Origin: Auricularia sp. M13
Taxonomy: Eukaryota; Basidiomycota; Agaricomycetes; Auriculariales; Auriculariaceae
DNA length: 64,000 nt
Direction: 5' to 3'
Assembly (NCBI GenBank): GCA_037042915.1
Contig: CM073198.1
Coordinates: 2,790,001-2,854,000 of the forward strand
A model generated the notes under the pieces. It did not search any database and was not told the DNA's origin. It worked only from the letters and a program-made list of their open reading frames with translations. Shown piece by piece: positions 1-63,892 of this stretch. Within the stretch, counting starts at the first letter, position 1. Each line of letters opens with the position of its first letter. A program made the position numbers and the translations under genes.

Positions 1-3000
1 CCCGGCCTGGTAACCAGGGTATAGGTGGGCTTGAGACTGTGCAGGCGAATAGCTGCGAGACATCGGGGCATCGTAATAGGTTTCTCGACCGTAGTTGGAC
101 ACCGTCCGGTTGTCGTACTCGTCCTTGAGCTTGGGAGGTGGCACCCACGAGCCAATGCTATGGTTGGATTCCTTGTCCCACAGCTCGTTCTCCTGCAGCC
201 GCAAGTGAGACAATGATACCAACGAACGTAGGTACGGCTTGGACATACGTAGTCGTTCCAAGACTTCAACGGAATAGACCGCGGATCGAACTTGCCCTCG
301 TCCTGGAACAGAATTAGCGCGCTCACATCGATATACCGGCAGAAAACATACATGAACAATGAGCTTCTTGCCTTTCTCGCCAAGTACCACACGAGTAGCA
401 CCCCAGGAGAAGTCGTCCATCTTCCAGAACGCATAGAGTGGCAGGAAGAAAGAAAACGCCGGAATAGCCAGAATGTAGAAAATCATCCAGCCGATCATAT
501 CCCACTTCCTCCGGAATATGAAGATGAGTGCTTGAAGGCCGTAGATGGCGGCGAGCATGATGAGCGACAACTGCGGGATGCCAGTACCCTCCGCGACGAT
601 AAGGTAGATGAGATATGCGATCTGGAAACAAAAACATAAGTATTGACACGGAGGAACAAATCGAGGATCACTGACGTAGGCCACCTGGACTGGTTGCACA
701 ATTGTTGACAACAGGTCGATGAAGACCACGAAGCGCATGGAGAAACAGCAGAATCCACACAAACGGTCAAGGAACACCAACTCGGCCAAGTTATGGATTG
801 TGGAATTGATCCAACGACGACGCTGCGAGAGGAGAATCTTCCATTCGTCTGGGGCAACAGTGTAGGCGTGGGCGTCTCGCACGAACTGGGTCTTGTTGGA
901 AGGGAAGTGCTTGAGGAGGAGCGTCGTCAGGTAGCGATCCTCGCCGAGATGTAGTAGGTTCTTCATATGAAGAGTGTCGACCCGATTCTCCGAGTAATCT
1001 TGGATAACCTGGTTGGAAACGAAAAGCGGCTTATGGGTGTCGGCCGTTCGTAGGCGATACATGGTGAAACAACCGGGTAAGCAAGTCACAGAGCCGAACA
1101 AGCTTTCGAATGCTTTCGCAAGATGATGCGAGATGAAGTACTCGTAGACCTACCACGCAATTAGTGAAATATCGCTGCTAGCAGTCAAAGGATTCTCACC
1201 TGCATCATCGTGATGATTGACTGTTTCGAATTGGCCAACGAGGTCTCGCCGCAAACACCGATGAGCTTCTTGTCATGCATCATCCTAAACGATGTGAGTG
1301 AGGGAAGAATGACATCACGAATGAAAGACGCACGCAGATACGAGACGATTGAGCGACAGCGGTTCAACGGTAGTATCGGCATCGACCACCAGTAGATATT
1401 CGTAGAACGTTGGGTTGACTCCGATGACGTTCTTGATCTGGTGGTATATTTCCAGCTCGAGTGGGTTCATAGGCGCGTTGAAGTGAACCTGTGGACGGCA
1501 AATTAAGCCATGGAACAAAATTGCGGGTTAAAAAGAGCATACCTTGTTAAGGAAGTGCATCAAGACCATCTGGGAGTCACGCTTGCCACGATTGCCAGGA
1601 CGCTGCCTCTCGGTCGGCTTCCCGACCTTGACGACGACGAGGTATGGAACGACATGGCCGCCACATTCGTACAAACCAGAATACACCTTGCCCATGTTGT
1701 GTTGCTTGGCGCCCTCGCCGAGCGAGAGGAAACTCAACGGCTCAGGATCGAGGTTGGGATCGGCACCAAGAATGTCGAGGACGATGCGCGGCGTGGGCCG
1801 ATCGTTTCCAGAACCCACGATATTGCCATCGCAGATGATAAACAGTAGCTTGCGTTTGTCGTCATACCGCAGCTTGGCCAACGAGTCGATGGTGTGCCGC
1901 ATAGACTCCTCGCCTTCGGTGTAGCAAGGAACCTGGCAAATGACGAACTTGTCGTGATCCTCTGGGGCACGCGGCGCGCCGAAGTGAAGAGCAGCCAAGA
2001 ACTTGAACCCAATGATAGAGACCATGACGATGGAGAGAGCAAGGAGAATATACGTCGCGAAGAGACATTGAGGAGCATTGCGGTGGTCCACCTTGCCTAT
2101 GGCAAAGAGATTGCGAAGGCAAATCTTCTGGCGATACTTGACATCGCGATCCAGCGGAAGCTCGTCGAACTTTTTCGTTATGTCGTGACCAGTGTTGAGC
2201 TGGAACAACTGAATAATCGACTGATCGATGATGTTCTTGTCGATGCCCTGAGGCGCTTGCTGCTCCTTGGGTACCTTGACAGCGAGCCCAAAGTTGATGT
2301 AGTTGGTCAGCTCGTAGACAATGTTGTTGTAAACTGCAACAACGCGCCCAGCAGAGGCCATGTCGCGCAGTAACTGAGTGGTGAAGCCGACGAAGCCAAC
2401 GCGGTACTTGTATCGCATGATGGTCATCTGCTCAAAGTACCAGTCAGGGCGGTAGTCAGAACTCCACGCTCTGAAGTCATGGTACTGGGCGTCGGTGGCG
2501 AACGAGCCCGTGGCATTAATGGTATCGAGGGTCAGCCACGGGCTGACCTGACCGTTGACGCCGTTGCAGAGCGCGCTGACTTGGACCGGGAAAAGCTGGG
2601 CTATATCCCGCCCGCCGTACTTGAGAATAGACTTCTGCTGCACAACGGGAATCGTAGCCTGGTGGACCTTCGCGATACTGCTGAGGTCGAAAACCTCGCC
2701 ACGGATGGCCGTGTAGACATGCTTCGGGTTCGTTTCGAAGGCGTGCGAGGAGAGCTCGTCGGCGTTGAAAACGTACTCGCGAGGGCAGATGAGGTTCCCG
2801 AGCACTGCAATGACGAAGATGGTGCAACCGCACATAAACCAGATGATGAGGTTGATGGCCAGCTTCTCGCGCCATGCCTGCCGCACATCCATGCGCTTCA
2901 TGCGGCCGAACCAGGAAAGGAACGGCGTCGGCAGCCACCATGTTAACACCCAGACGACAGCGAGCCACCGCCGACGAGCCGACGAATCATGAATCTCTTC

Positions 3001-5807
3001 CGCGACCTCGCCCTCCATGACCTCGCCAGGGAGCGCCTCCTTCTCGAGGCCTTTCTTCTCGAAATTCTGGAACATATTGCGAGAGGGCGCGTAGGATTCT
3101 GTCCCAAAATTGGAGTTCGTGTCATCACGGTGGCTGGTGTACCGGCTCTGGGCGTCATCATCGCTGCGGAACGATTTGCCGTCGTAGTCGTCGTACAGGT
3201 CTGCGCGCTGGAACGGCTGCGCGTTCGCAACGAGAGGCAGCGCCTGACTCGACTGTCCAAATGGATCCCCGTACATCAACGGCGAGGTCGGCGTATGTTC
3301 TCCACCAGGCGTAGCATACGGCGCATAGGGATCAGACAAACCGCGCGGATCGAGACCCGCTTCGGCCTCCATTTCCCTCATGCGGTTGCGCTTCTGCTCC
3401 TCGACATCTGTCGCGCGAAGTCGGTCCTCGAACTTGTGGAATGCCGCATGGCTGAGGAACACCTGAAAACACATATTAGTGGAAATACAGAGAATATGCT
3501 GGCAGCAGCGAACCTTGAACTGGCCAAGTACGACGTCGTGCTCTGCTAATCCGACCGCTTTACGCGCAAGGTCGACACGGTCGTTGTCCGATCCTTCCAC
3601 CAAGTTCAGCGCGGCAAGGGGCTCCTTGTAACGAGCGCAGAATTCGGCCGGCGTCATGCTAACTTCGAACACGATGGCTGAGCGGCGCGCGATCTCGGGG
3701 AGGCCGACGCATCGCACTTGTGCCTTCACACTTCTGCCCTCGAACTGGTTCGGCAGTTGCGAGTCGTTCGGGTTGATGCAGAACACATACCACGGCTGGG
3801 TATCGTCCAGCGTCTGGATAAGCGTCTCCATCGCGTTCTGGAATTGGCCCGCAGCGCACGGCGCGCCGGAAGACAACGCCTCGTCATGGGCTTCCTCGTC
3901 TTCGCCCAGCGTCGGCATGCGCTTGACGGTGTTCTTGCGGCGCGTGGAAGGTGCACGCATCGGCTTTTGCGGCTGCTGAGCCGCAACAACCGTGTCCTCA
4001 TTACGTGGGTGGGCGACGGTGGAGATAGCCTTGCTCGAGAAGAGACCACGAACGAAGGGGTTGATAGAGCCCGAGTCCGGCAAAGCAGTAGAAGGTAGCT
4101 CTGGCCCTTGCGCATGTGCGCCGCGGAGGAGCGAAACGAAGTCTGGGTTGAGCGCGTCGAGATTTCTCTCGAGGAACGACTCGGATGAGTACGTCACAGG
4201 ACCGTTGTAGTGGTTGATCGTGAACGTCGGGAACCCAGAGCGGTCCATAGCGCCGACCTTGAAGGAGCTATGGTTACCCCACCGCTTCCCAAATGCCTCC
4301 ACCATCGTGTGATCCGTCTTCTTGGGCATACGACGGGCCTGGTCGTCCATAATGTGGATAAGGCCGCCAGGCTTATTGCACAGCAACCGCACACACTCCG
4401 AGTTATCGAAGAATGGCACTGAGGGAACAAAGCGCGAGATGCCCTCCTTAGCGTACTCGTCCGTATGCTTCTCGAAGATAGAGCGCTGGATAAACTGGTG
4501 CAGCTTCTCATTGGCGAAGTTGACACAGAACTGGTCCAGCGAATTCGAACGACTAGCGGAGGTCGGCAGGTTCTGAGTGCCAGGCAGATCGAAAATGCCG
4601 ATAAACGTTGCGAAATCGTCACGGCAGAACCGCTGGTTGATGGACTCGTTCAACCACGAGAAGAGCAGCGAGTACAGCATCTTTGCAAGATCGTCTCGGT
4701 TGTCGGACGCGCCGTCAGGGTCGAGAAAGACCGTACACACTTCCTTCTTCACGAGCTTCGTCTTGTACGACAAGACAGCCTCGAGAGCGGCAGCGTCAAC
4801 GCCGAGGAAGTCGGCGACAATCTCGAGCACGTCAGTGTTGCGCACGACAGCGGCGTCTTCGTTGCGGTGACGGTCGATGGTGAAGTCGAGGTTACCAAGA
4901 TGCAGTATGGCGGCAACCAGCTGACACGCCTGAGCGACATGCCGTTTAGACATTCCCACGTTCTTCAATGCACCCTTCAGCTGCTCAAAGCGGAGCGCGT
5001 CCTCGTCTGGACCGCTTGTGGACGGACGCCCGAGCTGCGCGCGTTGACCGAGGTAGCGGAATGTCGTCTTCTCGCTGAGCTTGAGGTGCTGGCGCTCCTC
5101 GACGGAGGCGCCCGCGAGCAGGTAGTAAAAAATGTGGAAGTTTCGCTCGCCAGAAGGCGCGCCAGCCGCGCGATTGCGCTCGAAGTAGTACTCGAGCGTC
5201 TTGACACCGCATAGTCGACCGCGTTCGGTGAACTGCAGCTCGGTGTATTTGCCAAAGCGCGAGGCATTGGCGTTGAAGAGCGTGCGTGCGTTGCCGAAGC
5301 TCTCGAGGACAAACTCAGCCGCCGGTAGCTGTACGGCGAGCTTGGAGCCTTTCTTGCCAGGGTTGCTGACACTGAGCTCGAGGATGCTCTTGATTGCGAG
5401 ACGTCGGTTCTCAGACTTGCCACTGGCTGTGTCGCCGCTATACGGAGAACAAGCGTCGTTAGGAGCCGTAAACGGGCAACTCGGCGTACGCACCTTAGAA
5501 GGATGGACTGGTCAGAGCCCGTTCTCCGCATGTGGTAGTAGGCATTGTTGGCGAGCTGGAAGATGTGTGGCGGGTTGTAGGTCTTGTTCTCGGACGTGTC
5601 CCTGTACTCTGAGGCGTACTGGTGCAGCACTGCGTCCGAGTTCGAGGCCACGTATTTGTGCGGGTTGACCGCTACGAGCGCGAACGTGCCCACGGCCGTG
5701 TATATCTGGTCGCTGAGGAACCGCTCGCGCAGCGCGGTGATGATGGCATCGTCGGAAATAGAGGGCAGGAGCGAAAGGTCGAGCGTATTTTCGAACTTGC
5801 CGCCCAT
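1..5807 (-). CDS. Chitin synthase with N-terminal myosin motor-like domain (class V type), partial at the window start
   Basis: This membrane glycosyltransferase makes chitin from UDP-GlcNAc at sites of polarised growth. The first exon (5807-5494) encodes the start of a myosin head. An intron (5493-5438) falls just before a P-loop, GDTASGKS, a variant of the myosin GESGAGKT. The myosin-like part covers roughly the first 800 residues. A cytochrome b5-like segment follows near residue 990, at about position 2720, between hydrophobic segments near 2930, 2830 and 2040. The catalytic part then shows a DADTTV motif (about 1400), EDRY (about 930) and the diagnostic QRRRWINST (about 815). An in-frame 51-nt intron sits near 3480, and another intron lies near 1505. 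More membrane segments follow down to position 300, and the C-terminus (DEK_C-like in relatives) lies outside the window. The gene is otherwise intact. The ATG at 5807 was chosen because motor homology starts directly after it; an in-frame ATG lies 24 nt upstream. Confidence 0.95.
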
Positions 5808-15534: not shown

Positions 15535-18300
15535 ATGGTCAGACGACAGCGCGCGTCCAAAGCCGAACCACAGCCCGCGGAGGAGAATGCCGCGGAGAGC
15601 GAAGTATGCTGCTGCTCGCCGATGTTCCACTTAGTGAACTGACCGTTCCAGACGTGCTACATCATCCCCTTCGACGCCAACCGTACGCGTTGCCACCCAC
15701 AATCGCTGCTTTCGCTCACCGTCCCAAAGCATCACAGCCATTGCAAGATTGTACCACCGCAGCAATACCTCAGCACCCCGCCGCGCAATGTGATATTGAC
15801 GACGGACCAGCCATCCGATTGCGAGCATGTACGACGGCTCTGAAGAAATGTCTGGATCGCATGCAGGTGCGTAGCAGGATCTACGCAGTCCAAACGTAGC
15901 TCAACTGGAGTGCTGCAGGATGTCCTCGCGCAGATACGGGCCAAAACGGTCGATGACATTCACAACTTCGTCATAAACGAGCGTCACGAAGAGAATCCAT
16001 TAATGCCAGTCAAGGAGCTACCTGCTGCTGTGATCTCAGGTAATCGCATGCATGCTGCGACTGTGCAACAACTGACGGTTTGAGGACAGGCTCGGACCCG
16101 GGTCTTGTCAAGAATGTCATGGATGGGCTTTGCGAGCGCCTCGAACGTGACGAGGATAACAAAGTCATACATTTGCACCCATCCGATTGCCTCACTGCGG
16201 CCGGGGCACTCAAGTGCCTGGTCGGGAGGTTCCTGGGCTCCACAGAGGGATCCGGTGGGTGTGAAGGTCTGCGTGGTCCTGCAAGCAGTTACTGATAGGC
16301 GCCTTCCCAGGGACAGTCTCCGATCTGACACCTTTGCAGCAATGGGCGCAAGCTTGCACGCCCAATGGAGGTGCGGCTTGGTCCTTAAATTGGCGGCTTA
16401 ACTGATGGCATAACATCAAAGGCAGCGCTATCCGAGCGATCGTTCTCTTCCACGACGTGGAAATGTTTGATACGCAAGTGCTTCAGGAGCTGTTTGCTAT
16501 CTCAAGGTTAATATCAACGATTGGGTGCCCGCGCAACATCTGACGAAGATCACAGTCTCTATGCGGAAGACCTCCCGCTAGTTTACTGCTTGGGTACTTC
16601 CGCCCGCTCGGACTTCCTCCGCACAAGTCTACCCCGTGCAACACTCGCGACACTGCGAATGCGCAAGTTTGTAATATCACAGACAGCTACCTCCGTTCAT
16701 GAAACAGTGTTACGCAAAGTATGTTTCGCCATGAGCCATGTGCTCGCGCTCTTTAACTTTTCATGTTGACCTTGGATAGCTGTTCTTCGATCTGGACTTC
16801 AGCCCCGACGTCATGCTGGGGCCTGGAGCGTTTGAGGTCTTGCTAGACGAAGCCAATCGTTTCAACGCCTCTACCGACTTTCTGCGATCCGCGCTCCGAG
16901 TACGTACAGTCACTAATGCTTGTTGCACCGCCGTTCTAAGAGAGTTATGGCAGCTGGTGCACATGCACCACTTTGCGGAGCCCGTCTCTGCGGTCTGCAT
17001 CGACGAAGTCCTGGGTAAACGCGATCGGGCGCAGGCGGCGAGGCTGCTTGATCAGTCCGACTCGCGCGCTTTTCGGGAGCGGCTACTCGCATGTCTCGAC
17101 ATCACCCCGAATTCGCAACCGTACCCATCCGGAGAGGACATTCTGGACCTGATAGCGCGTCATCGAACCGAGTTTGAAGCGGCGGTGCGCCGTATGCGCA
17201 TCGCTTTCAACCTTTTGGAGGTGGTCCAGCAATATCTCCGCGAGCAGCAATTGAGGGCTCCAGAATTACGCCACAGCTTTGGACATCTGGCGCACTCGTG
17301 CCTGGCCGGGTCACTGGTCAATACGACCGCGAATGAGCTGTGCACTCTATTACAGTGCGCGATCTCCGGCCTCTTAGTTATGTGCATTTGTCTAATAACC
17401 TGCGCAGGAAACTGTCGGGAGATCAGCTGCGCGGGCTCGTAGCACGCATGCACAGCTTCTTCTACGACCTGTCCCCGCCAAATCGTCTAAATGAACAGGC
17501 CATCCGTACGCGCATCATTGAGGAGAAAGCTGCTCTCGCTGGTGCGACGAGTGTCGAAGACGTTCGCGGACGGGCGGAAAGCATCGGCCAATGGATGCGT
17601 GATTATTTCTCGTGAGCCACTTGACACGCACGTCAAAGCAGACTCTTATGATCCACCAGCGAGTGTCTAGCCAAGTTGGACGATCTCCCATTCTATAGCA
17701 TTACGTGTACGGGACAAACGACTTATTCACCAGAGGTGAGTCCGCTAACACTCATTTGCCACAAAGTTCTGAGGCATTGCACAGCTTTTGAACGCGAATC
17801 CTCGGGCGTCAATGATTGCTGCTTTGCTATCACCTCAGGATATCCTCCCGCCTACGGACGACATGGATGAGCAGGAGCTACCTCCGGACACTAGTATCCT
17901 GTTTCGTCGTTATCTCGACACCGGCAAGCTCATTAACATCCACGACTGGTATCACTCATTCGGTGTCCATCTCTCCGATCGCTCTGGCGCATCCATCACT
18001 AACCAAGTCGAGCACGAAGACGATGAAGACGACGATGGCGATGCCCCGCGCCCCGCAAAGCGTGCCAGACGACGCTCGCGATTGTCGCAGAGCCCGAAGA
18101 AGCCGAAGAAGAGCGCGCCGAAACCTGCAGCATCTATCGGCGACGCCGAACTAGAGGCTGAGGCAAAGGCGCGCTTTTTGCGCAGCTTTCACGAGTTAGA
18201 GTATCTTGGCCTCATCAGGCATACGCGGAGGAAGGTCGAACACGTTCAACGGACAGTGTACGAAGCTCCACATACGGCTCTAGAGGAACGTGATGTATAA
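15535..18300 (+). CDS. ORC3: Origin recognition complex subunit 3
   Basis: ORC3 is part of the nuclear complex that marks replication origins. Recognisable segments in order are AIRLRACTTALKKCLDRM (about 15810), GLVKNVMDGLCERLERDEDNKVIHL (about 16100), IVLFHDVEMFDTQVLQEL (about 16445), and LPLVYCLGTS then PRATLATLRMRKFV (about 16575-16680). The longest exon follows with FFDLDFSPDVMLGPGAFEVL. The C-terminal winged helix reads INIHDWYHSFGVHL, an acidic and Lys/Arg-rich insert, and ARFLRSFHELEYLGLIRHTRRK, ending at 18300. About ten introns interrupt it. The first exon is uncertain. The ATG at 15535 does not join in phase to the conserved part through introns I can see, whereas an ATG at 15587 does. 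The stop codon overlaps a TATA-like run that may serve the next gene. Confidence 0.87.
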
Positions 18301-18499: not shown

Positions 18500-19190
18500 A
18501 TGTCCAAGACCGAGCGCACCTACATCATGGTCAAGGTGAGCTCCAGGCTGTCTTGCAGCGTTGCAAGGTTGAGCGCTGATGCCTGCGATCTCGCCCCTTA
18601 GCCCGACGGCGTCCAGCGCGGTTTGGTCGGCGCCATCATCGCCCGCTTCGAGCAGCGCGGCTTCAAGCTCATCGCCTTGAAGCTCGTGCAGGCGACGACT
18701 GAGCACCTCGAGCTCCGTGAGTCGCCATCGCCGGATTCTATCGCAATCTAAGCGCGTTCATCGCTGATCGTGGCATCGCTGCAGACTACGCCGACCTGAA
18801 GGGCAAGCCCTTCTTCCCTGGCCTCATCAAGTACATGGCATCGGGCCCCGTCGTCGCCATGGTCTGGGAGGTCTCGATGCCGTCAAGACTGGTCGTGCCA
18901 TGCTCGGCGCGACCAACCCCCTTGCATCTGCCCCGGGTCAGTCTAGCACAGTAGACTCTAGTATTCACAGCTCATCTGCCACGCAATTTAGGCACGATTC
19001 GCGGAGACTACGCGCTTGCTGTTGGCCGCAACATTTGCCATGGCTCTGACGCTGTCGACAGCGCCGAGAAGGAGATCAAGCTGTGCGTGTTATTTTGCAT
19101 ACATTCTGTATCTCCTAATCCGTGTGCAGCTGGTTCCCTGAGGGCCTCACTCAGTACAGCCACAGCCAGGAGAACTGGATCTTTGAGTAG
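18500..19190 (+). CDS. YNK1: Nucleoside diphosphate kinase, with an apparent one-base deletion
   Basis: This enzyme transfers the gamma-phosphate from ATP to NDPs through a phospho-histidine. Exon 1 (18500-18535) encodes [12 protein letters not shown] and exon 2 [13 protein letters not shown]. Further exons give [34 protein letters not shown] and [19 protein letters not shown] with the active-site His, ending in SQENWIFE at 19190. The length fits the usual 150-residue enzyme. Near 18870 the frame carrying PVVAMVWE must shift by one base to continue into [15 protein letters not shown]. One G in a run is missing relative to the family pattern and no intron resolves it. An in-frame open stretch of 39 codons precedes the ATG, beginning with an ATG at 18383 in good context, so a longer form is possible. 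The gene is convergent with HD2. Confidence 0.88.
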
Positions 19191-19499: not shown

Positions 19500-21495
19500 T
19501 CATGCGTCAACGCCTAAGAATTGTGCCCAACTATTCGCGTGGCCGACGTTTGTCGTCCATGTCGGGTCATAGGCATGATTTACCACGTCCACATGCGCGT
19601 GGGCAGGGGTCCACACATCTGTGGACAAACGTCCTACGGATGCGCCCAAAGAATCGAGGTCAGGCAGCGACATGCTGTCAGTTGCAATGGTTGCAATGGT
19701 ATAATCGACGTGCTGGACGTGGGTAATGGGGTAGGAGAAATCAAACAGCGTTGTCGCCTCGATTAGCGGAGCTCGTGGAGATGTATATTGCTTCAGGAGA
19801 TTGGAGGAGAATGCTCTTGGATCGTGGTCGGGTGCAAACAGAGGTTGGCCTGGCGCACCCAGATTTGCGCGATTTGCCAGTCCCGTATCCTGAGTTGCGG
19901 GTGAGGGCGAGCAGGCACGGCACGGAAGGGGGGGTATGAGGGTGACGTTGCTGTGAAGGGGCACAAATTCCCCAGTGGCAGCGTCCTTGTAGTATAGCTG
20001 CTCTGTAGGCAGGTCTAACAAGGAATCGGTCGGCGTAGTCGGTGGTGCTGAAGACATAGACGATGCGCGAGACGACCCTGAAGATACCGCAGAAGTGCAC
20101 GATGATGAGGACGACTGGCGCGATAACGACGAGGACGTGCGTGATGACGGGCCCGCGCGTGACGCCCTGGGTCGTCGAAGAGGCAGAGGTGTTTGCTTCT
20201 GCGCACGCCTAGCTTTATTGGAGCTCACCGCCCCAGCAGCAATCATAGGCGTATGAGCTTTTGTTGAGGACGGATCGATCGCCCTGGTGCCTGTCGTAAG
20301 GGCGGACGTTAACGTCGTTGACGCGCGAGAAGCGGTCTGTTCAGGCGGCGCAGGACGGGGTGAAGGCCTATCCTGTGCGACTTTCCGCCGTGACGTGCGA
20401 GCTATGGAACCACTAGTGATAGGCCTCTGTATATCACTGTCCCCGGAAGACGAGGAGACTGTCCTGCCACCACGGGTCGATTGGTGATTCTTCGCCGCAC
20501 GTTCCGCGAAAGACACGTAGTGTCCGTCGTCAATATGAAAGTCCTCAAGAAGCCTCGCCAATTCTTCCACAGTAGGTAACGAGTTTCGTGTAGATGCAGT
20601 GGACTAAGAATAGTATTCAGGCTTTCTGCATGAACAGTGAGCATGGCACGTACCTGACAGCCAGAATCGCAAGAGTCGCCGTTGTTTTCCTCATTAACAG
20701 CTCGCGCCTTCAAAGCCGCGCGCTGAGCGCGCAAGTGGACTTCGAGCTCATCGATTGACTGTGGCGCACGCGATCTGTTGTTGGAGCGGTTCTTGTCACG
20801 TGCACGGCGGTTCTGGAACTATACTACAGTTATTAAAAGTCGGTGTAAGTTATGAGAGCCTACCCATATCGAAATCTGCTTCTCCGTGCGGCCTGTTACG
20901 CGAGCAAGGAGGGTTTTCTCGTGAGTCGTAGGCCGCGACGACTGCAGGTAGGCGTATTCGAGGATAGGTCCTGGATCCTGGGCTGATATTAGATGCAATA
21001 TACGCGCCATTGAATCGTGCGTACGGATACGACGGATTGCGTCCGAGTGAGAACACTCGAAGGAATGTGCATGCGGATTTGGGACATGATTTCATCGACC
21101 ATGGAGCCGACTTGTCGCTCGTATGTCGTCAGAAAACTGTCTCTTATGCCCGCAGATATTTTGCATTCGAACGAGGTGTCAGAGGAGGGTGCCGCACAGA
21201 TGTGGTGCGTACTGTCTGCACCGCAGAGAGCAGACGCATATTGGTCCAGAACAGATTGGCCGAGGGAAGTCACGGCAGTTGTAAAAGCGACCTCAATTTT
21301 ATGAGCGACGCCACGAGATATTCCGCGGTTGACGAGTCGGTCAAGAAGCGGCGGGGCAGATGGAAGGATGAGAGCTGGGTCACGACAGTATCTCTCATTC
21401 GAAGAGAGACTGTATCCTCGACTGGTTAGCCATGCCGACATCTTGTCCTGCAGAGCTGTCGCTGTGGGCAATATCGAGTCCAGACTGCAAGCCAT
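19500..21495 (-). CDS. HD2: HD2 homeodomain mating-type transcription factor
   Basis: HD2 proteins pair with HD1 from a compatible mate to switch on the dikaryotic programme. Four exons can be placed: 21495-21057, 20982-20864, 20818-20654 and 20603-19500, giving about 608 residues in one clean frame. The homeodomain spans roughly residues 139-198. It contains GPILEYAYLQSS, TEKQISIW and then FQNRRARDKNRS, so the canonical WFQNRR recognition helix is present with an intron between W and F. The first 140 residues, before the homeodomain, are the likely specificity region. The C-terminal half is disordered, rich in Ser, Thr, Pro and basic clusters, as usual for the family. It is divergent from HD1 with 90 bp between start codons, the classic arrangement of an A (HD) locus. 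The first intron was chosen so that the phase fits. Confidence 0.9.
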
Positions 21496-21585
21496 TGGCG
21501 GTGGTTAGGTGATGGAAGCGGTCAAAGGTTCGGTGTTTGCCGCGCTATTGTCCTTCACTCTCCCACCCACACCCGACGAAGAGCG
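21496..21585. promoter_or_regulatory. Shared divergent promoter of HD1 and HD2
   Basis: Only 90 bp separate the HD2 and HD1 start codons, so both core promoters and 5' UTRs must lie here or overlap coding sequence. The segment has a pyrimidine-rich tract (cttcactctcccacccacacc) near the HD1 start. I see no TATA box. Confidence 0.6.
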
Positions 21586-23561
21586 ATGGAATTATCCGCC
21601 TGCGACGCAGACATTTTCTCACGCCTTCAGCGCTGCCCTGCCGACTTTATGTGCGCTTATGGCTCTGGCGACATGAGTAACTTCCACAACACCTGGGCGG
21701 CCGTATGTGCAGACATCGAAGATGCTCAGGCTCGAGGCGCCGTAACCCTGCCTACCTTGCGACTAGCACACACGGTGTCGGCTACCATAAGATCCCTGGC
21801 ATTGCGCTTCGATAGCATCGAAGCTCGCACTCGTCACTTGGGAGACGACTTCCAGGAGAAAGCACAGCTCGTTCTCAACCAACAAATACCTGCTCCTGCG
21901 GTCAATATTCCCACAGTACGCATTGATCAGTTACTGAGGTACTAAATTTTGATGACGATTGGTAGACGCCTCCGACAGCTCTCCCGTTCCCTTGGGTACA
22001 ACCCCTGCTCCACTTTGTCCTCGATAATATCCACTCTCCGTATCCTTCCTCGGATGAGAAGCAGGCGCTTCTGGAACAATGCGCTGCCGCTGGTTGGGCA
22101 TCTGTTTCTCAGCGTAAGCTGGAGGATTGGATGAACGTTACCCGGAACAAGATGGGCTATACGCGTATCTTGAAAAGCGACGCAGTCCGCGAGAATCGCA
22201 CAACAATGGCAAACTACGTGCGCCGCGTCCTCTCTGGCCGGCCTGCCGACCGCAAGGGTATACCCACGGGAGCTGTCCGGGGAGTCGAGAAAATGCAGCA
22301 ATGGCTGCATGATCAATACGAGACCCGGGCAGCCAGGGACCAGACCAGCTCATGGGCGCGGGATGTCGTACATCTTGTTCAAAACCTGCGAGCCTCTTCC
22401 AAAATCGGCTCTGCCGCTGTCGGCGAGAATGACTGTCTCGGCGACTATGATGACGACGACGTCAGCGACGACGACGAGTCCCTTTACTCTGATAATGACT
22501 CAGAGTGCTCCGACTCTGATACTTTATACTCCGAGACCGACGTCGAGGACAACTTCGATGTTCTTTTTTCCTCGGTCATTGGCGCAAAGCGCAAGTTCTC
22601 CGGTCTTGGACTTGGCCATCCTCCTGCACGGATGGTCTCGCGCTCGTCATCCAGCTCGTCGTTCGTTTCGCATGTTACTTTGTTTGATGAATCCACCAAC
22701 GAGTCGTCCGATTCGGTCTTCCTCACCACCGACTGCGACGACGAACGCGCCTGCGATCGACCGACCAAGCGTAGTCGAAGCTTCCTCACCGCCGACTGCG
22801 ACGACGAACGCGCCTGCGATCATCCGAACAAGCGTCTTCGAAGCTCGCTCGACGACTCATCTGAGGAGCGCACGTCGCCTACACCTACAGTCGTCGCTGA
22901 CAGTCCGCCGGCCAAGCCGAAGCTCTTTGAACATCCGTACCGCTCGCAGAAGCGCAAACGCTCGTCGACCGAGGACTATCCTACATCATCCCCGGCGAAG
23001 CGTGTCAAACACATCGCAGCGCCCCCCTGCGCCCAAGTCGCCGCGACGGATCTCGACGCTCTCGATTCCATCTGTCAACTTGACTGGGACACATCGTCCG
23101 CCATGGCTGAACCGTGCGACAACGTTGACTTGTCGGCTTTTCTCATTGACACACCATCGCTCAACCTCGAGCCCTGCCCCGACAATCTCCTCGAGGCGGT
23201 GGCAGCTTGCTGCGAGTCTCCCAGCAGCTTACATATGCATGCTAGTCTTACCTGGAGCAAACTGCAAGTCTACATGCTAGAACGAATGCTCCGCCACGGA
23301 GTTCACATCGTTCCGTCCCAGGATTCTACTCCGGTGGACTCCACACCGTCAATCAGGTTCGACGCGTCTTTGTTCAGCCCCGAAGAACTCGCCTATCTGT
23401 GTTCGCTGTCGTTGGAGTGTCCAGGCGTCCGCCAAGCCTTGGTCGGGCCTCCAGACCTGGGACTTGGTCCAGATGTCCAAGAAATGACACGGCTGTTGCA
23501 TCCCGTAGACACATCTGTAGCTGCGCCCTCTACTGTAATTGTTCCATGTTGCCATCTGTAG
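21586..23561 (+). CDS. HD1: HD1 homeodomain mating-type transcription factor
   Basis: Exon 1 is 21586-21915, the intron 21916-21965 (branch-like actaa, ending ggtag), and exon 2 21966-23561, together about 641 residues. The N-terminal 110 residues are the probable dimerisation and specificity region. The homeodomain (about residues 120-175) contains NIHSPYPSSDEKQALLEQ, whose PYPS-type insertion is typical of TALE-like HD1 proteins. The recognition helix reads LEDWMNVTRNKMGYT. Trp and the Arg five residues later are kept, but the usual Phe and Asn of WFxNxR are replaced. An acidic run (DDDDVSDDDES) and several KR-rich clusters follow as likely nuclear localisation signals, including a tandem 21-residue duplication. 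The gene may use extra 3' exons to about 23670: splice-like sites there would replace the current tail with one encoding VDFDEWYSSLLSTPLVA. Confidence 0.9.
22719..22844 (+). repeat. 63-bp tandem duplication inside HD1
   Basis: Two adjacent 63-bp units (22719-22781 and 22782-22844) encode FLTTDCDDERACDRPTKRSRS and then the near copy FLTADCDDERACDHPNKRLRS. Each unit ends in a basic cluster that could act as a nuclear localisation signal. The high nucleotide identity suggests a fairly recent duplication. Confidence 0.9.
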
Positions 23562-24214: not shown

Positions 24215-27200
24215 ATGGGGTTCGCATTCGTGACCCTTGTAAGCTCGGACGCCGTACCTGCCAGGCGCGCTTGTCGTTGCGTCTGCGCTGCGCGACGTGC
24301 ATCCGACGCCGGCCCAGCCGCCAGAGGTCGAGTTCCAGACGGTCTGCCTCGTCACGCCCGAGACGGTCGACGTCAGGAGCATTAAGCTGCTCCGTCGCGC
24401 GTTCGATGTCGTCGTCGGCGTCGAGGTCATCTCTGCGGACACAACTATCGGCCTGGACTTGCTCGGTACGTCCAGCGTTTCGTTACCCACGGCAAATGGG
24501 CGCCCGTTGCTGCATACACTCGGCCTATCTGGCAACGCGCTGCCCGTGCTGTGCTTCTGGCTTGACGTGCACGCTAACACTCTCCATTCTTGGTTCGCAC
24601 AGGACGTCCCGATTTGCACACCGTGCTCACCAAGCTGCACGCCTTCCGTCTCACTCAGTATGACAAGATCATCTTCCTGGACGCCGACGTTCTCCCTCTC
24701 CGACCATTGTCGCACCTCTTTACGCTTCCTTACGACTTCGCCGCCGTGCCTGATGTCGGTTGGCCCGATATTTTCAACTCTGGTGTCATGGTCTTCAACC
24801 CAGGCGACGATAAATTCAACGCAATCATGGAGCTTGTGAAGTCCAAGGGCAGCTGGGATGGAGGGGACCAGGGCGTTCTGAACGAATGGCGCGGCGATAA
24901 CTGGCATAGGCTCAGTTTCACATACAACACCACTCCAACTGCGGCATATACGTATGTTCTTGTCCTCTCTGACGTTCATTCTTCCGTGCTGAGCATCTCC
25001 ACAGCTACGCTCCGGCATACGAGCGATTTGGGAACAAGATTTCTGCCATCCACTTCATTGGTGCTGCGCTCAATTGTCCGCTCAGAAGTCTTCGAACTGA
25101 CAACACATAGGCCCCAACAAACCATGGGCTTCCATACCGTTCAGAGCCCCCGCATCCCATGCTTCACATCCCTCATCCTCAGCTCAACAATCCTACGCAT
25201 ACAATGCGTTGGTTGACCGCTGGTTCGACGTCTACGACACGCATTTCCGTCCCACCGAACTCGCGCCTCACCAAGAGTACGAGATACAACGGTATAAATC
25301 TGCTTGGAATGAATCGACGGAGTCACTGGCGCCCAACACAGTGCTCAACTTGGACGATCTCAAACGCCTAGCGATTGAAGGTGTCGGTGCCAGCGGCATC
25401 GTCGGTCAAGCACCCGCTGCTGCTGGGGAGGGCGAATATCAAACACTGCCGCTGGAAGGTCGCGTCGACCTGATGCGTCCGCCTCCCCTGCAGACTCAGG
25501 AGCATGCGCCACCCGCCAGTCCGCCTCACGTGCACATCGAAGGCCCCACTCCTCCAGCGGTCTTTACTCAACAGGGCACGAGTGGTTCGTCCTTACAGCC
25601 GTATCCGTCATTCCCTGCCCAGGCCCTGCCGACCCCATTACCGCATGAAGTTCCTCCGGCGCCGCTGCAAAGAACTCACTCGCTCCCGCCAGTTACACCG
25701 CAAACTGGTGTTCCCACCCATCCACACCAGCCGCCGCAGTATTTCCCACCGCCTCCGGCCGCGCAGCACCACTCTCGTACGCCTTCGCCTCCCCGGCCGC
25801 CATCCCCGCCGAAGATTACATGGAACCCTGCGCTCGAGCCGCCGCCGCGCACTCCCCCGCCGCCTTCTCATTTCCCAATCGATTCATACTTCCCCAATGT
25901 TTGGGATGTGCCACAAGGGCAACATCATCATCACCACCAGACTGAGGAGGAGCAGAGGACGCATCGCGACCAACAATTCTTCCAGCCCCCAGCGCGTAGC
26001 CACATCCCGTCGCATCTCATCGAACAAGGTCATTATAGCTCGGTTATCACATCGGACGTGAAGCACCCGCAACCTGACCGAAGCAGTGTTGCTACAGTGT
26101 TTCCTTGGGAAGAGCGACGCAGGCACGCCCCCCAACGCTACTTCCCGCGCACGGACACGCCCCCACCAGGTCTTCCCTTCGTGGAACCAACGCCCGAGAC
26201 TCTTCCGCAGCCGGTCCAAGCCACACGACACTTTTCTCCGCCTTCGTCACCTCCCAGTCATCGCAGCAATGGCATGCCGCTTTCTATGCAGTATGTGAAC
26301 GCATGGGACCACGTGCCAGGCATTCAGAAATATGCAAAGCGTCTGATGCGACCACCTGCGCCTCCCATCGTCCTTCCTACCGAGCCCGCGCCCTCCAAGG
26401 GCCATCGCCGCCGTCACAGTGAAGGTTATCCTGTATGGGAGGAAGTCGAGGAAAGTAGTCGCGACGGTGATGTGAATCGGACGACGAACTTTCGGACAGC
26501 GGACGCAGCACATTGGGTGATCTGGAATCGACGGACTCGCAGGACAAATCTCTGAGCAGCCAAACGCTGACATCGCCGTCCGTCAGTACGGCGCCGCCCT
26601 TCCCTGCTCCAACGCGTCCCGGCACGTCCGTGGTGCCTCGCAGCCGACGAGGTTCGCGTACAGGTTCCATCGGTGACAAAAAGTACAAGTCGCAGAGCAT
26701 CCAGACCATACCCAAAGAAACGCGCGACCGCGGGTGCAGGCCGTGCGCCGCAAGGCTAAGCCGCCACACCTCAGCCCAGGCGCTTTACCACCTGTACCCA
26801 CAGAGATTCAGCAACTCAAGGTCACCGCGAGCGAGGCGCAGATGAGTTCGACGCCTCACGGACCCGCGCCTGGCTTGCCGCCTCCATGAGCGGCAACGCT
26901 GGCTTCCCTCCCTCCGGGACGCTTTCACCCCGTCTGCACGACTCGTACGCCTTCGGTTCGATGAACTATTCACCTCCGAAAGACGATGGTCGCGGTACTT
27001 CGACTCCTCCCAAGCCGAGAGTTGCCGCAGGCGCTCGCCCATCCCCACCGTCTGGACAGTCAGCAAAGGCTGTTCCTCGACAGGACGATCGTGGTGCACG
27101 CAACCGCCCCCGTTTGCAGTCGCTGCCCAGCGAAGACGTAGTCTTGTCCCCGTCTCGAGCGGAACTCCGACCTCCCCTGTAGGCGAGGCTGGACGAGCGA

Positions 27201-60272: not shown

Positions 60273-63200
60273 CTAGTTGGAAGCGACCTCCTCCACAGAG
60301 GGACATTCGCACTGTTGAACATGGTCAGGAATTGCACTCGACGCAGAGCGCGCACTTACGACTAAGTTGATGTCGCCGTAGGCTGAATGACGATGCCTCT
60401 ATGAGCGCGAGCACAAGTTACGGGAGCAGATGGGCGCACCGTCATCTATCCGTGTTACAGTCGGCCAAAACTTCCGATGCCTGAGGAAAGGCAAGGGATA
60501 GACAGCAACTTCGCGGCTGTATGGGCTTGAATGTGATTTAGCCTACAAACGCATACTTCTTCGCGGTCATACGCACCGATTCCAGTCAGCATCGGACAGT
60601 GTGACGGCCGCGATGGGATGCGGTGCGTTCTTGAGCAGATTGTTGTCCTTGGGCTGCTTCCCAGTGATTATGTCTTCAGCTTCCTCGCGTATCTTGATCA
60701 TGGCGTCGCAGAATCTTAGGTCGAGTCAGTCACTTGCTGGAAAAAGATAGTCAAACACACCGATCAAGCTCTTCGAGCGATTCCGATTCTGTAGGCTCAA
60801 TGAGCATGCACGTGGAAATGGGCCACGAGCATGTGGGTGGGTGGAATCCGTAATCCTGCAGAATTAAGTCGTATCCGTGGTTGGAAGAAAAGATAGATGA
60901 ACGAACCTGAAGACGCTTTGCGAAGTCAGTGACCTTTAAACCGGCGGCTTTATCGAATTCGGCAAGGTCAATGAGCAGTTCGTGGGCGACACGATTTTTG
61001 CCGTTCTTGTAGCGCAACGTATAATGTCCACGAAGACGCTCGGCCATGTAATTCGCGTTCAGAAGCGCCATCTTCGATGCGTCGGAGAGACCACGACCCC
61101 CAAGCATCTTGATGTACGCCCAAGAGATGAGAAGGATGGACGCGCTCCCAAAAGGCGCAGCAGCGACTGCTTCTATGGCATTCTCTCCACCAGTTGCGAT
61201 GAGAGGGTGCGTAGGAAGGAATGGCGCGAGATGCTCTGCAACACAGATAGGTCCAACCCCAGGGCCGCCGCCACCATGAGGGATAGCAAAAGTTTTGTGG
61301 AGGTTCAGATGGCAAACGTCACCGCCGCATGTCGCCGGATTCGTCACACCGACTTGCGCGTTCAGGTTAGCGCCATCGAGGTAAACCTGGCCGCCATTCT
61401 CGTGAATGATCTTGCATGCCTCTGAAACACCATCTTCAAACACTCCAAACGTAGACGGGTAAGTGATCATGAACGCTGCCAGCTTATCACGATGTTGCTC
61501 GGCCTTCGCGCGCAAGTCACCGAGGTCGAGGTTCCCGTCGGCATGGGTCTTGATAGATATGACCTTCATTCCTGCCATTATAGCAGACTACGACGAGTTA
61601 GAGCGGGCGAATGCGCAGAGTATGATTGCTTACAGCAGGGTTTGTACCGTGCGCGCTGACGGGAATCAAGCAGACGTCTCGATGGCCGTCACCCCGGGAT
61701 TCGTGATAAGCCTTTATTACACAAAGGCCAGTATACTCGCCCGCAGCACCAGAGTTGGGCTGCAGCGATGCCGAATGGAAGCCTGTTATCTTGCACAAGT
61801 CCTCAGAAAGTTCCTACGCATGGTCAGATATTGCTCGCCCTGCCTTGAAGTTCTCACCGACCTTGACAATTTGCAGATAACCAGCAGCCTGATCGGTGGG
61901 CACAAACGGATGGATGGAGCTATACTCCTGCCACGTAAGTGGGATCATGCTACTGGTGCTGTTAAGCTTCATGGTGCAGCTGCCGAGGGGGATCATGGCA
62001 TGGACCAGCCCAGGTCCTTCGACTGTAGGTGGTGGATGTAACGAAGCATCTCCGTCTCGGAGTGATGCTTGTTGAAGACCGCGTGAGGAAGGATGTCGGA
62101 TGACCGCTGGACGTTGATAGGAATAGCGCTGGTAGACGGTGGCAGCAAATCAGCTGGTGACGCAGAAGCTCCGGTAAACACGGCGACAAGGTCGGTCAAG
62201 TCCTTGAGGGAGACACTCTCGTCAAGCGTGACACCCAGATGTCCATTGTCGATTTGACGGAGGTTGATGCCTTGCGCGACGGCCCGCTGCTGGATAGCCG
62301 CCGCTTGTTCCGGCGCCGAAATCGTTAACGTGTCGAAGAATGCGGAGTTGACGACTGTGAGCCCTGCACGTTCGACTTGTTGCTTGAGGATCTGAGTGAA
62401 GGCGTGCACCTTGCCTGCGATGGCACGCAAGCCCGTGGGGCCATGGTAAACGGCATACATGGCAGCCATGTTCGCCAACAGAGCCTGCGCCGTACAAATG
62501 TTGCTCGTTGCCTTCTCGCGCCTAATGTGCTGCTCGCGAGCTGGAGAGTGTCAGATAAATGCTGCAGCCATGGGTGGTTGAACGTACTCTGGAGTGCAAG
62601 ACGATATGCCGGCTGACCCATCGTGTCCTTACTTAGTCCGATGAGGCGGCCTGGCATCTTGCGTTTCAGAGCGTCCTTAACGGCAAAGAAGGCGGCATGC
62701 GGTCCTCCGTAGGCAGCAGGAACGCCAAACCGAGCAGAGTTACCCAACACAATATCGCACCCCATTCACCGGGCGGTTTCAGCATCGTCAGAGCAAGAAG
62801 GTCCGTCGCGACGCTGAGCAGAGAGCCGTTCGCGTGTACCCGCTCCGCCAAAGCCGTATAGTCTGCAACATGGCCATTCACGTCGGGATACTGGACCAAC
62901 ACTCCAGAGACTTCGGGGGTAAGCTGGTGCGAGAGGACGTCGGAGACCACGAGTTGAATGCCAAAACCTTTCGCACGCGTCCGAAGAACTGCCAGAGTTT
63001 GCGGAGCAACACCACGATCGACGACGAATGTCCGTTTCTTCGATCCGGAGACCGAGTACGACATGACCATCGCTTCCGCAGCAGCAGTGGCCTCATCCAA
63101 GAGAGACGCATTTGCGATATCCATGGCCGTGAGGACATAACCATCGTCTGGTAATTAACTAAAGACTCGAGACGACCTACAATCACTCAGCATGAGCAAT

Positions 63201-63800
63201 GAACATATCAGCGTAAAACACGCACCCTGCGCTATCTCTGGCTGATAAGGCGTGTAGGGTGTGTACCATGCAGGGTTTTCAAGAATCTAGATAACAGAGT
63301 CGGCCGACGCAGCACACTACCGCCCGCGGGAGAAGACGCACATTGCGAAGGATAACAGGCGGCACTACGGCGTTGTGGTAGCCCATGCCGATGTAGCTCC
63401 TGAACACCTTGTTCTGGCCCGCAAGCTCCTTCGCACGGTCCAGCAGCTCGGACTCGGTCAAGGACGGGATGGTGTCGTTGCTGACGGTGTCGGCGGCGAT
63501 ACGGATGTGCTTCGGGACTGTATCATCGACGAAGGCATCCATGGTGTCATAGCCCAGGTACTTGAGCATCTTAGCAACCTCGTGCGAGTCTGGGCCGATG
63601 TGTCTGTCCGCGAATGTGTCGAGCGGCGCGAACACGGGATGAGCATAATCCGTCGCCGTCGAGAGCGCTCGCAAGCGGGATGGAACGAAGCGGGCCTGGC
63701 CAGGGCGCCGGCCAAGCGAGAGCGAGGATAAGCTCCGCAGTGACGCGGGGAGCGAGCGTCGAGCGCGCGAGACGAGACTGGCCGCCGGTGCACCCTGCAT
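60273..63800 (-). CDS. GCV2: Glycine dehydrogenase (decarboxylating), glycine cleavage P-protein, with two apparent one-base deletions
   Basis: This mitochondrial PLP enzyme decarboxylates glycine in the glycine cleavage complex. The N-terminus ([20 protein letters not shown], Arg/Ser/Ala-rich) is a mitochondrial presequence. Family blocks follow: [111 protein letters not shown] and [20 protein letters not shown], whose Lys binds PLP. The end is [20 protein letters not shown]. The frame breaks twice by one missing base. One break is near 62756, between PPGEWGA and DIVLGN. The other is near 62007, between KDLG and LVHAMIPLG. Neither is explained by an intron. Otherwise about 1000 residues and many short introns are intact. 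Confidence 0.93.
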
Positions 63801-63892
63801 TTGGCCGCTGGGAGGGCAGGCAAAAAAACGGGGGCGGCCTGTCGCGCGGGTAGGCGGTCAAGGGAAGCGAGGGCAAGGAAGGTCGCCGCGCC

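Follow-up and report, generated by a model that had tools for sequence, protein, structure and literature searches.

Whether two divergent homeodomain genes in Auricularia sp. M13 form an A (homeodomain, HD; MAT-A) mating-type locus, as an earlier note on this DNA had proposed, and which of the two encoded proteins would read DNA, are the questions raised by a 64-kb window of contig CM073198.1 (assembly GCA_037042915.1, positions 2,790,001 to 2,854,000 of the forward strand; all coordinates below are those of the window). Judged from its sequence, the locus is very probably an Agaricomycete A mating-type locus, of which one divergent HD2/HD1 pair is visible. The proposal is supported because the pair is divergent, HD2 has a strong homeodomain and an exon layout like those published, HD1 gives a weak Mating_N match together with a Homeobox_KN match and TALE homeodomain hits in Foldseek, and a glycogenin-like and a glycine dehydrogenase gene lie among the flanking genes, as in published MAT-A loci. 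The mating-locus system is well known and the pair is otherwise ordinary, but two points are unusual: HD1 is without the normal DNA-reading residues, and the usual neighbor, MIP, was not found in the window.

The HD2 gene occupies 19500-21495 on the minus strand, from an ATG at 21495 to a stop at 19500, and encodes 617 residues in four exons (21025-21495, 20864-20977, 20654-20818, and 19500-20603). Its introns, at 20978-21024 (47 nt), 20819-20863 (45 nt), and 20604-20653 (50 nt), are all of the GT..AG type. The HD1 gene lies on the plus strand at 21586-23561, with an ATG at 21586 and a stop at 23561, and encodes 641 residues in two exons (21586-21915 and 21966-23561) that are separated by a single 50-nt intron (21916-21965). 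Both splice models were built from the sequence, without transcripts. The claim that two homeodomain genes diverge from a 90-bp gap was borne out, the intergenic region being 21496-21585. No GATGN9ACA sequence, a target site of the U. maydis b/yeast a1-alpha2 type, is present in these 90 bp; across the window there are 11 such sites against ∼8 expected by simple base counting, which is unremarkable.

The canonical WFQNRR homeodomain that had been ascribed to HD2 was confirmed. Pfam Homeodomain (PF00046) matched the protein at E 3.5e-10 with 40 bits (cut-off 22.9) over residues 162-205 (20789-20965, minus strand), with WFQNRR at residues 195-200, and a sequence search of the PDB gave 173 distinct hits at E ≤ 1; the 60 that were listed all bear the names of homeodomain proteins. 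The homeodomain is split by intron 20819-20863, which falls directly after W195; another intron lies 38 residues upstream of that point, intron 1 being placed just before the aligned start of the Pfam homeodomain, and the last exon is long. In the HD2 genes of C. cinerea and F. velutipes, introns 1 and 2 cut the homeodomain at the same places and the C-terminal exon is long (PMC3140503). By that description, the four-exon HD2 gene here resembles them in the location of introns 1 and 2, in the homeodomain region, and in its long last exon; HD2 of Trichaptum likewise has four exons (PMC8970355). No Pfam match was found in the N terminus of HD2, for which the structure model was mostly helical and of low confidence (pLDDT 48). 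Pattern matches to the last exon of HD2 in viral contigs (13) and to residues 1-250 in bacterial and archaeal contigs (32) included none that was confirmed, a result with no bearing on rarity in fungi.

Recognition of HD1 was less direct. Exon 1 alone matched Pfam Mating_N (mating-type protein beta 1, PF12731) at residues 5-89 (21598-21852, plus strand), the alignment covering model positions 10-93 of 95 (84 positions), with E 0.0044 and 17.5 bits, below the cut-off of 21.4; the family was not listed in the Pfam scan of the whole HD1 protein. Neither Mating_N nor Homeobox_KN was hit by any of five control pieces made by reversing or shuffling HD1, but one of them hit an unrelated DUF family at E 0.0087, and the Mating_N match taken alone is therefore weak. 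Homeobox_KN (PF05920) fell short of its 24-bit cut-off with whole HD1 (E 2e-4, 21.6 bits) and just exceeded it with an 89-residue piece of HD1 (E 1.9e-5, 24.9 bits). The alignment covers only residues 129-150, the PYPSSDEKQ region, and leaves helix III outside. The TALE-like homeodomain attributed to HD1 in the earlier note was thus recovered in its front part, with the PYPSSDEKQ loop, while the rest, helix III included, is unrecognizable by sequence.

The domain as delimited here is a degenerate TALE-type homeodomain at 22020-22145 (plus strand), which extends from the PYPSSDEKQ region to a helix III that reads WMNVTR (residues 165-170), as against WFQNRR in HD2. In standard homeodomain numbering, this helix preserves W48 and R53 but has M in place of F49 and V in place of N51. 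In addition, six extra residues precede helix III, the tryptophan falling at Pfam model position 39 (ungapped) compared with 33 in HD2. The WFxNxR motif was not found in HD1; that a normal copy is hidden by an unrecognized intron or frame shift was rejected, the motif being absent from all three forward frames of 22080-22190. A single-sequence structure model of 150 residues of HD1 showed, with low confidence (pLDDT 55), a helix at each of the positions expected for helices I-III. When this model was submitted to Foldseek, 5 of 40 hits had a probability above 0.4 (0.47 to 0.89), and all five, identified by entry title and through the PDB search with HD2, were Extradenticle (Exd) or Pbx1 TALE homeodomain chains.

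Because position 51 is V instead of N and six residues are added before the recognition helix, HD1 itself probably does not read DNA. Such a condition is already published for several accepted HD1 proteins: HD1 of Grifola (G. frondosa) is without a DNA-binding domain (PMC10607315), that of Wolfiporia hoelen is without the motif (PMC9503964), and in Pycnoporus cinnabarinus the HD1 homeodomain is degenerate, with a reported deletion in helix II. WFxNxR in HD1 is accordingly usual but not defining. In all three species, as here, HD2 has a homeodomain but its HD1 partner is without a good WFxNxR. HD1 of this window differs from them in that the PYP loop region is readable, W48 and R53 are retained, and six residues are inserted before helix III, in contrast to the helix II deletion of Pycnoporus. 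This half-degenerate protein looks intermediate between a normal HD1 and an HD1 without a homeodomain and may be useful for establishing when HD1 stops needing DNA binding.

The same degeneracy could instead signify loss of function, the locus being present but no longer in control of mating, whether in a homothallic or asexual species or through decay of HD1. The lost Asn-51 and the six extra residues would fit such a history, as would a frame break in the adjacent nucleoside diphosphate kinase (NDK) gene and an apparent one in the glycogenin-like gene on the other side. Against it, both HD frames are long and open, over 531 (HD1) and 367 (HD2) codons in their last exons, and accepted loci have been reported in which the homeodomain of HD1 is likewise degenerate or missing. 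We consider loss of mating control improbable.

If the pair acts as an A mating-type locus, its operation can be outlined from what is known of the family. After fusion of two monokaryons, HD1 of one nucleus would dimerize with HD2 of the other allele through their N-terminal parts, whereas an HD1 would not pair with the HD2 of its own allele. The N-terminal 110-140 residues of each protein, to which the earlier note assigned the allele-specific recognition surface, would be the putative seat of this specificity. The heterodimer would enter the nucleus with the aid of basic signals in HD1, its HD2 homeodomain would position it on DNA, and the acidic region of HD1 would then activate genes, turning on the pairing of nuclei and the formation of clamps. 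Because the recognition helix of HD1 is without the DNA-contacting Asn at position 51, the reading of DNA is expected to fall almost wholly to HD2. Candidate regions for the other steps are present in HD1. An acidic stretch, a putative activation region, lies at residues 264-295 (22425-22520, plus strand), where 15 of 30 residues are D or E in the best 30-residue windows. Basic clusters occur near residue 436, and a pattern scan marked a putative nuclear localization-like cluster, RSQKRKRSSTED, at 22941-22976 (plus strand). In the literature, HD1 is described as the carrier of the nuclear localization signal and activation domain, and HD2 as the strong DNA-binding partner (PMC3140503); the acidic and basic stretches of HD1 fit that published role, if they function as their composition suggests. 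A 63-bp in-frame tandem duplication with 90% match was also observed in HD1 (22718-22845, plus strand). It repeats a DCDDERACD...KR.RS unit at residues 366 and 387, doubling an acidic-basic unit, and is a possible length polymorphism between alleles.

The genes that flank the pair bear on its identity. Beside HD1 lies the glycogenin-like gene (24215-26555, plus strand, start and end approximate), in which PF01501 (Glyco_transf_8) matched 24578-25213 at E 2.6e-13, the name glycogenin being given by eye. A gene for glycine dehydrogenase (P-protein; PF02347 and PF21478), in exon pieces with approximate ends, occupies 60754-63857 on the minus strand, 37 kb beyond HD1. Both are reported MAT-A flank genes that are linked here to the HD pair: in Volvariella volvacea the genes that flank MAT-A are MIP, SEC61, glycine dehydrogenase, and glycogenin (PMC4938666), and in Trichaptum glycogenin flanks MATA (PMC8970355). 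With the MAT-A loci of V. volvacea, Trichaptum, and Flammulina velutipes, the locus shares divergent HD1 and HD2 genes, a classical HD2 homeodomain, and glycogenin and glycine dehydrogenase among the flanks. It differs from them in that no MIP was found in the 64 kb, NDK adjoins HD2, and the glycogenin-like gene adjoins HD1 without room for beta-fg. A beta-fg of 231 residues, the length in Auricularia heimuer (PMC7151073), would not fit into the 653 bp that separate HD1 from the glycogenin-like gene.

These flanks also bear on whether the pair consists of homeodomain genes with no part in mating that are divergent by chance. A precedent for a gene of that kind is HD3 of W. hoelen, a conserved homeodomain gene thought by its authors not to act in mating (PMC9503964). 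The Mating_N-like N terminus of HD1, the head-to-head pairing, and the reported MAT-A flank genes all argue against a chance arrangement, which we regard as very improbable indeed.

Several observations weigh against an ordinary mating-type locus. The Pfam matches of HD1 are near or below curated cut-offs, and no Mating_C match was obtained with Pfam in its C-terminal part. When the homeodomain piece of HD1 was searched against PDB sequences, the three hits were unrelated and included no homeodomain (best E 0.18), and every Foldseek E-value for the HD1 model was at least 2. The HD1 model has two exons, compared with three in HD1 of Trichaptum (PMC8970355). Lastly, the window yielded no MIP: no HExGH occurs in the six frames, the single HExxH is unrelated-looking, and no Peptidase_M3 was among the families listed for the scanned open reading frames (ORFs). 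These were 93 of 330 stop-to-stop ORFs of at least 85 residues, and the lists took in 25 of 35 families in one scan and 25 of 34 for one ORF, the others being low-ranking. The missing MIP counts in this way because MIP is described as closely linked to the HD genes in all Agaricomycetes (PMC3140503). In A. heimuer, however, MIP lies ∼60-68 kb and beta-fg ∼52 kb from the HD genes (PMC7151073). Given that distance, proximity of MIP would seem to be usual but not defining, and the A. heimuer value may serve as a lead toward an Auriculariales-like layout rather than as a test of it. MAT-A of A. heimuer resembles the present locus in that MIP and beta-fg are not beside the pair. The proteins of its strain A14-8 (683/693 and 626/628 residues) are similar in size to those here, and its gaps are 153 and 294 bp, a likeness by description (PMC7151073).

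A. heimuer differs in having two HD pairs, 36-41 kb apart (PMC7151073), compared with the one seen here. The pair in view could accordingly be one of two HD subloci, with a second pair outside the window completing the A locus; this possibility is a form of the mating-type reading and compatible with it. F. velutipes offers a parallel, its HD subloci being 73 kb apart and beta-fg undetected near them (PMC3140503), and the failure to find MIP in the window is also in keeping with such a split. On the other side, no second homeodomain was among the families listed for the 93 scanned ORFs, and tblastn across the window beyond the pair and its immediate surroundings gave nothing better than E 0.17 with HD2, 0.52 with HD1, and 0.11 with the HD1 homeodomain, in visible flanks that extend 19.5 kb left and 40.4 kb right of the pair. 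A W.N.R motif scan overlooks genes with an intron between W and F and overlooked this HD2. A second sublocus beyond the window is possible but less likely than not.

Returning to the pair as an A mating-type locus, we tentatively suggest, at somewhat less than even confidence, that HD1 may keep a folded TALE-like domain without reading DNA, the heterodimer reading through HD2 alone, in a lineage in which the pair has parted from MIP and beta-fg and stands between NDK and glycogenin. Breeding by mating type and population studies of this fungus could use the locus as a marker, and the flank genes would permit amplification of other alleles. Of the components of a pheromone system, no receptor domain was among the families listed for the ORFs of the window, and six short ORFs with a CaaX-like end included no precursor that was convincing by eye.

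The NDK gene beside HD2 (18500-19190, plus strand) was matched by PF00334 in three pieces, at model positions 45-75 (E 3.8e-8), 74-99 (E 0.042, weak), and 96-129 (E 2e-9). A one-base frame change near 18871 lies in the middle of a conserved stretch (18860-18960), between the first and second pieces, with nothing between them. In the first exon of the glycogenin-like gene, a one-base frame change near 24240 is apparent by eye (24215-24260), in pieces without a Pfam match. The two breaks suggest either that the record contains indel errors or that both genes have decayed.

Beyond NDK, the left flank contains an origin recognition complex (ORC) winged-helix gene, a molybdopterin-binding domain gene, a P450, PTPA, and a myosin-type chitin synthase. 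No mention of NDK or origin recognition complex was found among the papers listed in literature searches, and such an arrangement may be published nonetheless. The ORC winged-helix ORF (17773-18297) gave a weak Pfam Mating_C match (E 0.0029, below the cut-off) that is probably an artifact of a basic stretch. An NCBIfam search with seven ORFs yielded nothing relevant. To the right, the glycogenin-like gene is followed by an NYN domain gene, a class I tRNA synthetase (valyl by eye), DBR1, arginase, SUR7, and a TPR protein. Further right are ricin-B lectin-like, WD40 (best THOC3), GH92, F-box, and ING genes, and then glycine dehydrogenase at 60.8-63.9 kb. At the opposite end of the window, positions 1-5511 hold the large chitin synthase gene, which carries a myosin motor and a cytochrome b5-like domain.

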